22,724 nt of DNA. It comes from a virus. Under the pieces are notes generated by a model. The model did no database searches, was not told the origin of the DNA, and saw only the letters and a program-made list of their open reading frames with translations. Each line of letters starts with the position of its first letter. The stretch's first letter is position 1. The translations under genes and the position numbers were made by a program. Below, one piece after another: positions 18,783 through 21,956 of the stretch. The stretch lies in the IMG/VR virus record IMGVR_UViG_3300025598_000192, positions 1-22,724 of that record; one strand, written 5' to 3'.

Positions 18783-19023
18783 AAATTCGCACGAAAACAA
18801 TCACATGGCTAATGCGCCCGTAAAGCGCCCTCAAGCCATGAACCAACAGATTGCCAAGTCTGTTCGTCCTCAGTTGCCACGGGATGGCTCTCCTGGACAA
18901 ACACGCTGGCAACCAGGTGAGCTGCCTAAAGGTGGTTTTCGTTCCGTGTTTGACTTCTCGGAAACGTCTAGCTACAACACCAAGAAAAGCCCAACTGAAG
19001 GCAGCGGCAAGAAGGTGTACTGA
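18745..19023 (+). CDS. Hypothetical Asn/Pro-rich protein
   Basis: 92 residues, ATG at 18745 has AAGGAG at 18732-18737, 7 bases away, so the 38-base overlap with the membrane protein gene is accepted. The product has an N-terminal Asn/Gln/Lys-rich disordered region, then KRPQAMNQQIAKSVRPQLPRDGSPG, a Gly/Pro-rich linker and GFRSVFDFSETSSYN, with a basic Gly-Lys end. An alternative shorter start at ATG 18805 is possible. Stop overlaps the next ATG (TGATG). Function unknown. Confidence 0.5.
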   Translation: MPSNNRQNQWTNKNSHENNHMANAPVKRPQAMNQQIAKSVRPQLPRDGSPGQTRWQPGELPKGGFRSVFDFSETSSYNTKKSPTEGSGKKVY

Positions 19024-19373
19024 TGGCTAATAACATTCCATTTCAGCCTATGGGCAAAACCGTCAAAGTGGTGGTTAATGGGTCGGCTAACACACAGTCA
19101 AACGTGTTTACCATTACTGCTGACAGCCCTTGTCAACAGTATTTTGTTGCAAACGCAGACGTTAATTCTGCTGTTTATGTTTGGATTAATCCAACCAACA
19201 CATTTAACGTGGCATTGCCAGACAATGGTCCTGGTTATGTTATTTCATTGCCTCCTTACGCTTACAAAGTGATTTCAGGACCACAAGTAAGCCAAAGCGG
19301 TAACGTTTACGCCCGTGTTATTGGCGACGCAGCAAACGCCTCTGTTTACATCACCCCAGGCGAAGGTCTGTAA
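19023..19373 (+). CDS. Small beta-rich protein, paralogue of 10531-10866
   Basis: 116 residues, ATG overlapping the previous TGA. Predicted all-beta: TVKVVVNGSANTQSNVFTIT, QQYFVANADVNSAVYVWIN, PYAYKVISGPQ, VYARVIG and a final SVYITPGEGL. Start and end motifs match the small protein at 10531 (see there), so the genome keeps two copies 8 kb apart. It may be a virion surface or adhesin subunit. No enzyme residues. The TAA at 19371-19373 is followed by GGGG, which serves as part of the ribosome site for the next gene. Confidence 0.6.
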   Translation: MANNIPFQPMGKTVKVVVNGSANTQSNVFTITADSPCQQYFVANADVNSAVYVWINPTNTFNVALPDNGPGYVISLPPYAYKVISGPQVSQSGNVYARVIGDAANASVYITPGEGL

Positions 19374-19383
19374 GGGGTAAGTC

Positions 19384-19962
19384 ATTGACCCGATAACCGC
19401 ATTCGCTGCTTGTAAAGCTGCCTATGCGGGTATCCAGGGTGCAATTGAGATATACAAAGACCTCAAGCATACTGGCGGTGAATTGTCAGGCATTGCCTCT
19501 GAAGTCGGTGGATTCCTATCCACATTCTTTCAAGGTCAGCAGCACCTAGAAGACGAACACGAAAAGCAAAAAGAGCAAGCCAAGAAGGATGCTGCCGCTG
19601 GCAAGCCACGCAACGTCACGATGGAAGCCATTGACAACGTGATGCGGATTCGCCAAATCAGGCAGTACTACAAAGACCTCGAACACATGGTGCGCTATGA
19701 GCTGGGGATGCCAGACCTGTGGCGCGAGATTGTTGAAGAGCGCCAGCGTCTGAATGATGAGAGAGCCGCTGCCAAGGCTTTGAAAGAGAAGCTGGAAGAG
19801 CAAGCAAGGTTAAAACGTGAGTACCGTTTAACTGTAATAAGGCAGAACATTTTTCTTGTTTTGGCTATCATCTTTGCAATTTTCACAATTGTTGGGACGA
19901 TATGCGGGATAAGTCTGCTAGTTCAGGAGGATATGACAAGACGATACGTTATTTATCAATAA
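19384..19962 (+). CDS. Coiled-coil membrane protein, apparently starting at ATT
   Basis: In this frame a stop lies at 19378-19380, and no ATG or GTG start is found before the TTG at 19483. The codons from 19384 read ATT-GAC-CCG-ATA-ACC-GCA-TTC, i.e. Met-Asp-Pro-Ile-Thr-Ala-Phe if ATT initiates, the N-terminus I would expect for this family. AAGGGG (19372-19377) is 6 bases upstream of the ATT. From ATT the product has 192 residues; from the TTG it would be 159 and lose a coding-looking segment (FAACKAAYAGIQGAIEIYKDL). The middle is a Lys/Glu/Arg coiled coil (EKQKEQAKKDA, ERQRLNDERAAAKALKEKLEEQ), and a transmembrane segment lies near residues 157-181 (IFLVLAIIFAIFTIVG). It may be a lysis-associated or envelope protein. 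Function unknown. Confidence 0.6.
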   Translation: MDPITAFAACKAAYAGIQGAIEIYKDLKHTGGELSGIASEVGGFLSTFFQGQQHLEDEHEKQKEQAKKDAAAGKPRNVTMEAIDNVMRIRQIRQYYKDLEHMVRYELGMPDLWREIVEERQRLNDERAAAKALKEKLEEQARLKREYRLTVIRQNIFLVLAIIFAIFTIVGTICGISLLVQEDMTRRYVIYQ

Positions 19963-20105
19963 CGGCAATTGTCTTGACCATCCTTTTGGTCGTAGTTACT
20001 ATCTTGGGTGCAAGATGGTGGGCTTTGGAAGAGCGAAAACTTGGCACACAGAAAATCAATCGACTCAAAAAAGAGTTAGAGATGTGTTTAAAGGATAAAG
20101 AATGA
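19902..20105 (+). CDS. Single-span membrane protein at start of lysis cassette
   Basis: 67 residues, overlapping the preceding gene by 61 bases in another frame. N-terminal polar 18 residues, then a hydrophobic span (~19-36: LSITAIVLTILLVVVTIL) and a basic, Lys/Glu-rich tail (KINRLKKELEMCLKDKE) that looks coiled. The upstream ribosome site is weak; the ATG at 19902 is the only start near the overlap in this frame. Its stop overlaps the Rz-like gene start (ATGA). Could be a holin regulator, pinholin-like or an accessory membrane protein. No close family recognised. Confidence 0.5.
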   Translation: MRDKSASSGGYDKTIRYLSITAIVLTILLVVVTILGARWWALEERKLGTQKINRLKKELEMCLKDKE

Positions 20106-20536
20106 ATCCCTGGATACTTGCTGGCGCTTTGGCGATGGTTATCAGTGCGTACTTTTACGGACACCATGAGGCTTATGTTGAACAAGCTGCGGAAGTTGCT
20201 CGTCTGAATGCTATTCAACATGAGAAAGAACAAGACATGAAACAAGCTGCGGATGACCAAGCAGCTTCATTGAAAAAGGCGAACGAAAATGCAAAAGCTC
20301 AAATTACTAAGTTGCAGTCTGACCTTGCTTCTGGCGAGTTGCGGTTATCTATCGCCACCCGCAGCGTATCAAGCAGCCAAAATGCCGCCTCTGCCGCAAG
20401 AGATACAGAAACAAGAACCGAACTTGACCCAGAGGCTGCTCAATCTCTTGTCTCCATCGCAGCAGACGGTGACTCAGCCATCCGCAAACTTAACACCTGT
20501 GTCGATTTATACAACCAAGTAAGGAGTAAGCAATGA
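20102..20536 (+). CDS. Rz-like inner-membrane spanin
   Basis: 144 residues. An N-terminal transmembrane helix (~4-19: WILAGALAMVISAYFYG) anchors it, followed by a long periplasmic coiled-coil domain (~30-100: EVARLNAIQHEKEQDMKQ and KKANENAKAQITKLQSDL). The C-terminus, Glu-Leu-Asp-Pro-Glu-Ala-Ala ... Ile-Ala-x-Asp-Gly-Asp-x-Ala-Ile-x-x-Leu-Asn-x-Cys, is a recurring end of Rz/DUF2514-type proteins. It overlaps the gene before and the gene after by ATGA junctions and contains an entire second gene in another frame (20289-20522). Inner and outer spanins bridge the two membranes and destroy the outer one after wall cleavage, so the host is Gram-negative. Confidence 0.75.
   Translation: MNPWILAGALAMVISAYFYGHHEAYVEQAAEVARLNAIQHEKEQDMKQAADDQAASLKKANENAKAQITKLQSDLASGELRLSIATRSVSSSQNAASAARDTETRTELDPEAAQSLVSIAADGDSAIRKLNTCVDLYNQVRSKQ
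20289..20522 (+). CDS. Rz1-like outer-membrane lipoprotein spanin, nested in Rz-like gene
   Basis: 77 residues read in the +1 frame entirely within the Rz-like gene. The N-terminus MQKLKLLSCSLTLLLASCGYL has a basic start, a hydrophobic core and a lipobox Leu15-Ala16-Ser17-Cys18, so signal peptidase II cleavage before Cys18 and lipidation are predicted. The mature protein is proline-rich (PPAAYQ, MPPLPQE), as are Rz1 proteins. A weak AAAAGG lies about nine bases before the ATG. This is the same nested arrangement as lambda Rz/Rz1. It pairs with the Rz-like protein to span the periplasm. The lipobox and its place in the lysis cassette make coincidence unlikely. Confidence 0.75.
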   Translation: MQKLKLLSCSLTLLLASCGYLSPPAAYQAAKMPPLPQEIQKQEPNLTQRLLNLLSPSQQTVTQPSANLTPVSIYTTK

Positions 20537-20757
20537 AATGGGATTTGAAAGCGTGTGTCACGCTAATTGCCAGTTTGTCTCTTATGGGTGTCATCATCAG
20601 TATGATTTGGATGTTTGTCCAAGCGGTGCTTGACCCTACTGTGGACGACAAAATTGTTTTTGATATTGTTGGACCTGCTTTCCAATCAATTTGCGGTGGC
20701 TTTCTTGGTTTGATTACTGGCATTCACATTGGAGCAAAAAATGACACAACTGAGTGA
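20533..20757 (+). CDS. Holin-like membrane protein (two spans)
   Basis: 74 residues, ATGA overlap with the spanin gene and AAGGAG upstream at 20520-20525. It has two hydrophobic segments, ~9-31 (VTLIASLSLMGVIISMIWMFVQAV) and ~47-66 (GPAFQSICGGFLGLITGIHI), joined by a short Asp-rich loop, with both ends short. The class II holin topology, the place between the spanins and the endolysin, and a next-gene overlap of 17 bases support a holin that lets the peptidase reach the wall. Alternative: another membrane accessory. Confidence 0.6.
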   Translation: MKWDLKACVTLIASLSLMGVIISMIWMFVQAVLDPTVDDKIVFDIVGPAFQSICGGFLGLITGIHIGAKNDTTE

Positions 20758-21199
20758 ACACTTCACCCTTGACGAAGCAACGTACAGCGAGACGGCTATT
20801 CGTTTGCACATTGATAATCAACCCAGCGAACAACAGTTGCACAACATGAAAATTGCTGCTGAACACCTTGAGATGGTGCGCTCTGCAACTGGTCCTCTGC
20901 GTGTGAACTCATGGTTACGCTTACCTGCGGTCAATGAAGCTGTGGGCGGTAGCAAAATCAGCTCTCACATGGACGGTTGGGCTATTGATTGCAGCTCATC
21001 TGCACATACCCCCTATGAACTGTGTCAAATAGTGAAGAGTGCAGGTATTAAATTTGACCAAATGATTCATGAGTATGGTCGTTGGATGCACATTAGTTTT
21101 GCACCAGAGATGCGCCAGCAAGAGTTGACCATCTTCAAACCAGAAGGCAAATATAAGCCAGGCATTCTCACAGAAGCTGAGTACCACGCTCACGCATAA
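20741..21199 (+). CDS. Endolysin, M15-type (D-Ala-D-Ala carboxypeptidase-like) peptidase
   Basis: 152 residues from the ATG at 20741, with GGAG 6 bases upstream; a TTG at 20729 is an in-frame alternative without a better site. Peptidase M15 motifs: Ser-Ser-His76-x-x-Gly-x-Ala-Ile-Asp83, then Phe-Asp-Gln-x-Ile-x-Glu111-x-x-x-Trp-x-His117-Ile-Ser. His76, Asp83 and His117 would hold zinc and Glu111 would act as the base. The N-terminus SEHFTLDEATYSETAIRLHI is a common start for this single-domain class. No signal peptide or membrane anchor, so a holin is needed for export. It would cleave peptide bridges of the cell wall. The last gene of the plus-strand operon. Confidence 0.8.
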   Translation: MTQLSEHFTLDEATYSETAIRLHIDNQPSEQQLHNMKIAAEHLEMVRSATGPLRVNSWLRLPAVNEAVGGSKISSHMDGWAIDCSSSAHTPYELCQIVKSAGIKFDQMIHEYGRWMHISFAPEMRQQELTIFKPEGKYKPGILTEAEYHAHA

Positions 21200-21211: not shown

Positions 21212-21272
21212 GGGGTAGAAAAATCTTAAAACGGATTTCGCTCCCCCGCCACCAAAAAAATCACGTTTTTTG
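21212..21272. terminator. Convergent intergenic region with weak stem-loops
   Basis: Between the endolysin stop (21199) and the methyltransferase stop (21261) lie 61 bases. GGGG 21212-21215 pairs with CCCC at 21243-21246, with an inner GAAA-x-ATC/GATTTC pairing (21218-21225 with 21234-21239). A second A/T hairpin, C plus six A (21253-21259) against six T plus G (21266-21272), follows. Neither is a classical terminator, but the A/T hairpin read on plus ends in a T-run and read on minus also ends in a T-run, so a bidirectional terminator is possible. Confidence 0.35.
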
Positions 21273-21956
21273 AAATATCAAGTTGACGAATGTTCTTGCC
21301 ATCAACTTGTAGCCCTTGCCACGCAAAAACAAGCAAATCTTCTTCACTGAACCTGGTGCAAATTCTTCGCTAGGCTCAATCATGATGATATAGGGCTGAT
21401 ACAAGTCAAAGTCTATATCTGCCAAAATTTCGTAGTCGTGACCTTCTACGTCAATCGACAACATGATGTTTCCTGTGCGATTCTTCAAAATGTCGTTAAT
21501 TCTGATAGTTGGCACAGTGATGGTTTCTGTTATCTGACCATCTTTCCAATTTTCAACAAAACTCTTGTTTACGCTGGATATCTCATTGTCTGGGCTGACG
21601 TAAAACTTAATCTCTTCTTTGTGACTATTGGTTACAGCGTAATTCAGAACTTCTGCGCTTCTGTGCTTTTTCAACTCTGGTATCAGTTTAGGGTTTGCTT
21701 CCACCAACACGCACTTAACGCCCATACGTTCAAACAAGTAGCTGGGGCTTGTATTGACGGGATGGTTTGCACCTATTTCAATGAAAATCAAACCAAACCC
21801 GCCATGTGACGTTTGATTAGCCCATACCAGGCTTGTCAAAATCACATCTTCGTAGGCTTGAGCAAAAGAGGGTTGCAAAAACGTCGGAATGGTCGGTGCA
21901 TCCATGCCGTGTTGATTGATTTTCTCAAGAATAAACGGATTTAAATAATGATTCAC
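21261..21956 (-). CDS. FkbM-family SAM-dependent methyltransferase
   Basis: 231 residues on the minus strand, start GTG at 21956 overlapping the upstream stop by GTGA. SAM-binding motif I is Phe58-Ile-Glu-Ile-Gly-Ala-Asn64, followed by an acidic ribose-binding position in Val-Leu-Val-Glu86-Ala-Asn-Pro, a middle Asn-Tyr-Ala-Val and Ser-x-Asp-Val-Glu-Gly-His-Asp174-x-Glu-Ile-Leu, the FkbM hallmark. It would transfer a methyl group to a hydroxyl, often on a sugar. The neighbour and opposite strand suggest a glycan or surface modification function. It could modify host polysaccharide, a phage-bound glycan or a sugar nucleotide; substrate is unknown. Confidence 0.75.
   Translation of the reverse strand: MNHYLNPFILEKINQHGMDAPTIPTFLQPSFAQAYEDVILTSLVWANQTSHGGFGLIFIEIGANHPVNTSPSYLFERMGVKCVLVEANPKLIPELKKHRSAEVLNYAVTNSHKEEIKFYVSPDNEISSVNKSFVENWKDGQITETITVPTIRINDILKNRTGNIMLSIDVEGHDYEILADIDFDLYQPYIIMIEPSEEFAPGSVKKICLFLRGKGYKLMARTFVNLIFQKT

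Follow-up and report, generated by a model that had tools for sequence, protein, structure and literature searches.

An ATT codon conserved at the probable start of a lysis-region gene in freshwater phages

The ATT codon at 19384 and its surroundings

Where does translation begin in a gene whose reading frame runs well upstream of its first usual start codon? The window (the whole stretch of viral DNA that we analyzed, 22,724 nt, IMG/VR record IMGVR_UViG_3300025598_000192) raises this question in its lysis region, where the original prediction had placed an ATT start codon 6 nt after AAGGGG and followed it with Asp-Pro-Ile-Thr-Ala-Phe. We found exactly this arrangement: the AAGGGG resembles a Shine-Dalgarno (SD) sequence, the ATT opens a coding frame of 192 aa as its codon 1, and the codons after it are GAC CCG ATA ACC GCA TTC. 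The frame around the ATT is open from 19381 to 19962, and its first usual start is the TTG at 19483, 33 codons past the ATT. A TAA lies in frame at 19378-19380, two codons 5' of the ATT, and only a GTC stands between them, so a start farther upstream is impossible. We ruled out chance and a sequencing or base-call error, as five further contigs (L002-L006) have an identical ATT site and ATT is present in 124 of 150 distinct relatives.

Table 1. Features of the window around the ATT codon
Feature	Position	Strand	Remarks
Upstream gene	19023..19373	+	TAA at 19371-19373 ends 10 nt before ATT
AAGGGG	19372-19377	+	SD-like
ATT (AUU), probable start codon	19384-19386	+	codon 1
ATT-started gene	19384..19962	+	192 aa; uncharacterized; remote match to phrog_32327
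Small ORF with hydrophobic segment	19902..20105	+	lysis-region neighbor; no family match
Rz-like inner-membrane spanin	20102..20536	+	PF03245; phrog_2466
Putative Rz1-like lipoprotein ORF	20289..20522	+	signal peptide and Cys, by eye
Endolysin, M15 peptidase	20729..21199	+	PF08291; phrog_894
FkbM-type methyltransferase gene	21261-21956	minus	beyond the lysis genes

A GGGT...ACCC repeat, which had been described as flanking the start, is indeed present in the window; it is found in 13/150 relatives and the local RNA fold at the start is no better than that of shuffled sequences (z = 0.18). On these grounds we rejected a GGGT/ACCC hairpin as a functional element. The repeat is incidental and without meaning.

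Codon 1 among relatives of the gene

A first tblastn-confirmed scan of viral contigs returned 45 loci encoding relatives, and later scans using other members and a profile returned many more. We read the homologous first codon in these loci with a hidden Markov model and defined a core set of 150 distinct sequences, from which identical cases were removed and the distant DC31 and marine groups were set aside. The median pairwise protein identity in the core clade is 46% and the minimum is 34%. No bacterial or prophage relatives were found, as no bacterial genome gave a match, and the annotated phage collection contains a single relative of the window protein, that of Limnohabitans phage DC31 (29% identity). 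In one relative (L188), the frame stops after 95 codons despite a normal start, which reflects either a broken gene or an assembly error.

In the core loci, codon 1 is ATT in 124, GTG in 24, ATC in 1, ATA in 1 and ATG in none. Where codon 1 is of the Ile type, it is ATT in 124/126 as compared to 560/1913 (29%) of the internal Ile codons of the same genes (ATT:ATC:ATA = 560:678:675), and the constraint therefore acts on the codon and not on isoleucine. None of the Ile columns that are conserved clade-wide is fixed for a single codon. When sequences were clustered at 90%, ATT made up 21/22 of Ile-type first codons (naive binomial 1e-10, in which kinship overstates independence). The lack of ATG stands out, since a single third-position change would produce it and third positions in the rest of the gene are nearly saturated. 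The alignments thus indicate that a large clade of freshwater phages conserves ATT at the codon level and never has AUG there.

In codons 2-33, the mean pairwise difference is about 0.2 at positions 1 and 2 and 0.54-0.62 at position 3, a pattern that points to purifying, protein-level selection from codon 2 on and agrees with the earlier description of the 33 codons 5' of the TTG as coding-looking. Because this stretch is constrained as protein, translation starts before it. Gene callers limited to ATG, GTG and TTG would pick the TTG at 19483, and the 5' part of the frame would be untranslated if this or another downstream codon were the true start; however, protein conservation extends over codons 2-33, and the first canonical start downstream has no conserved position, varying from codon 9 to codon 87 among relatives. 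The position of the TTG is itself not conserved and no set of homologues starts there, so we consider a downstream start exceedingly unlikely. Instead, homologues align from exactly the ATT codon with no ATG in the core clade, as expected from the original reading, and in 24 relatives this codon is a GTG, from which the protein would begin Met-Asp/Glu-Pro. In 142/150 loci, no in-frame canonical start separates the upstream stop from codon 1, and in 15 loci a TAA directly precedes the ATT codon. Among the lysis genes that neighbor it in these loci, 77-100% of members begin with a canonical start. The family thus shows two marks of a non-canonical start: no canonical start is available at or before the N-terminus in the window and in most relatives, and a rare codon is conserved across divergent homologues.

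Could selection act on ATT as a motif in the DNA or RNA, or on its isoleucine, and not on a start? Marine relatives, too, often have ATT at codon 2, where it accounts for 44/56 of the Ile codons after the start. Compared with that proportion, the 46/47 of the core set (95% clustering) gives 2e-4 with kinship ignored. Furthermore, neither the flanks nor codons 2 and 3 are constant, ATT is preceded by 66 different contexts of 15 nt, and its replacements (GTG in 24, ATC, ATA) are start-type codons with no other Val codon ever among them, which makes a motif or a required isoleucine very improbable.

Ribosomes might also reach the N-terminal part from the upstream gene, through readthrough or a frameshift, or initiate out of frame and then shift. 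Upstream stops are close by, and the start is overlapped by an out-of-frame TTG in the ATT class and by an out-of-frame ATG in loci with GTG. However, the upstream stops of relatives are found in each of the three frames and at widely differing distances, the TTG frame is only 3 codons long in 32 ATT loci, and codons 2 and 3 show synonymous variation when read in the frame of the gene. We rejected readthrough, frameshift and fusion models because of the stops in all frames, and we give this whole group of routes hardly any weight. Coupling of the ATT gene to the upstream gene is possible. Taken together, these data strongly suggest that the AUU at 19384 is the start codon.

Two start arrangements and what may maintain them

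ATT-class sites mostly have a strong SD at a spacing of 5-7 nt (median duplex energy –5.8), and 8 of 68 representatives are without a good SD by the duplex-energy measure. In GTG-class sites, the SD is almost absent (median –0.2). All 24 GTG-class sites have the form TRATGTGG and read TGATGTGG or TAATGTGG. An out-of-frame ATG is present at –2 in 24/24 GTG-class and 0/124 ATT-class loci; the corresponding AUG shares one base with the GUG in each of the 24, which makes them AUGUG sites, and in 20/24 the stop of the upstream gene lies at –4 and overlaps this AUG. On a protein tree built with codon 1 left out, we counted at least 8 switches between ATT and GTG. The –2 ATG tracks GTG in 6/6 well-supported independent pairs (sign test 0.03), a modest association given only six pairs; a weak SD tracks GTG in about 5/6 (sign test about 0.06), which with so few pairs is suggestive when taken alone.

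We propose that the gene is translated from an AUU positioned by the SD and that selection keeps its initiation weak: IF3 would strongly discriminate against the AUU, and the strong SD would offset this. Several lineages would have swapped in a second weak design, a nearly SD-less GUG inside UGAUGUGG or UAAUGUGG, in which the out-of-frame AUG would compete and is usually overlapped by the upstream gene's stop. The benefit would be that a helical, tail-anchored membrane protein, encoded beside the endolysin and spanin genes, is made in small amounts or only under certain conditions, and such dosing would be the simplest common reason for both weak starts. We consider selection for weak initiation probable, by analogy with published work on IF3 and on AUGUG sites, in which starts of both kinds are weak or ambiguous and are restrained in E. 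coli. Work in E. coli and Streptomyces makes low expression and IF3 sensitivity plausible but may not fit the hosts of these phages, and the GUG form could be efficient if it is strongly coupled to the upstream gene.

To our knowledge, only a handful of genes have a conserved AUU start, and our search of a literature library for AUU starts in phages returned nothing relevant and no conserved AUU start in a phage family. The infC gene of Escherichia coli is autoregulated by its own product, IF3. It has an ATT start and is repressed by IF3 (PMC5472188), and it resembles the present gene in that AUG is avoided in favor of an AUU that IF3 discriminates against; in contrast, the phage gene lies in a lysis region, is unrelated to IF3 and has a repeatedly used GUG alternative. 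Streptomyces sigR has a GTC start with a conserved strong ribosome-binding site and is also repressed by IF3 (PMC5472188). There, as here, a rare start codon is conserved together with a strong SD, and the start variants are GTC and GTT, not ATG (PMC5472188); however, sigR concerns GTC in one bacterial genus, whereas the phages have ATT (ATC, ATA) alternating with an AUGUG form. At AUGUG sites in E. coli, initiation at the AUG competes with initiation at the GUG, and at one site that was tested, use of the GUG frame fell when position 4 was G instead of A (PMC9841429). In the GTG class, too, every start is an AUGUG whose GUG frame encodes the gene, but these starts differ in having almost no SD, a G at the fourth position and an AUG that usually overlaps an upstream stop (TRATG). 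Re-initiation that proceeds without an SD is likewise repressed when IF3 is in excess (PMC2268962).

More tentatively, both start designs may be kept as a translational gate that responds to host IF3 or to the state of the ribosome, a reading that we consider possible but less likely than not. If it were true, the amount of a lysis-cassette membrane protein, and perhaps the timing of lysis, would follow the translation status of the cell.

The distant relatives, which are mostly marine (DC31, Roseobacter CRP phages, HMO-2011 and 69 distinct marine contigs), begin with ordinary ATG or GTG. Their N-termini are either Met-Asp-Pro directly or ATG plus an Ile codon (MIDP), often as ATG-ATT-GAY-CCN, and ATG is followed by ATT, ATA or ATC in DC31 and in 55/69 of the distinct marine relatives. 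The comparison suggests that the freshwater AUU may have arisen by loss of the ATG from ATG-ATT-GAY-CCN with the next codon taking over; because the outgroup branch is long, we offer this scenario only as a suggestion. In most of the phrog_32327-group loci (L047, L115-L123, L249-L261, L343-L422), ATG is followed by ATT, ATA or ATC and then GAY-CCN, so that codon 2 occupies the position of the freshwater ATT. One distant relative (L255 1501-1959, MW202640) is annotated as a peptidase, which is probably a mislabel, as family searches of its relatives do not support it.

The same loss of ATG, with the SD compensating, could account for the AUU start with no regulatory reason, and the ATG-Ile order in DC31 and the marine relatives fits such a history. 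Under this explanation, however, a T to G change would restore AUG and third positions are nearly saturated, yet 0/126 ATN starts are ATG, and the repeated switches lead to another weak arrangement. We therefore regard an AUU without regulation as unlikely and favor selection for weak initiation. With its retained AUU, its avoidance of AUG and its repeated changes to and from a second weak start, the clade offers a natural experiment on selection for weak starts, and callers restricted to ATG, GTG and TTG truncate the N-terminus of the entire family.

The gene product and its lysis-region neighborhood

The lysis-region setting of the original prediction is well founded: an endolysin (M15 peptidase or lysozyme) lies within 3 kb downstream in 99 of the 100 loci that have enough downstream sequence. 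In the window, the small ORF overlaps the final 61 bases of the ATT gene (19902-19962), and the Rz1-like ORF lies wholly within the Rz gene in a different frame.

The product of the ATT gene has four predicted helices and, by eye, a hydrophobic segment close to the C-terminus (about residues 155-180). Its structure was modeled with moderate confidence (pLDDT 76, pTM 0.54). Searches for solved-structure relatives by sequence and by fold gave nothing meaningful, a viral fold library gave mainly uncharacterized phage proteins with no informative fold match, and the lysis families of Pfam, PHROGs and NCBIfam (holin, antiholin, spanin) gave no match. A match of phrog_32327 to the window protein is weak (E = 0.0046 over residues 1-174), and there is an indirect link through DC31 (E = 1.3e-10 to phrog_32327; DC31 to P0001, E = 5e-5). 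Members of this family, in Puniceispirillum phage HMO-2011, Roseobacter CRP phages and Limnohabitans phage DC31, share the homologous Asp-Pro N-terminus, a helical protein with a C-terminal membrane segment and, often, a position near lysis genes; they differ in their ordinary ATG or GTG starts. The product would be a helical membrane protein anchored by its tail, and a role as a lysis regulator is possible and is the most natural guess. No tRNA gene is encoded in the window.

In ctz7E20 (MW202753), the closest complete genome by capsid (87% identical), a copy of the ATT gene was not detectable. The same slot (L262 23272-23727) holds a GTG-started gene that ends in a hydrophobic segment; homology between it and the ATT gene was not detectable, and it is possibly a functional replacement of the ATT gene.
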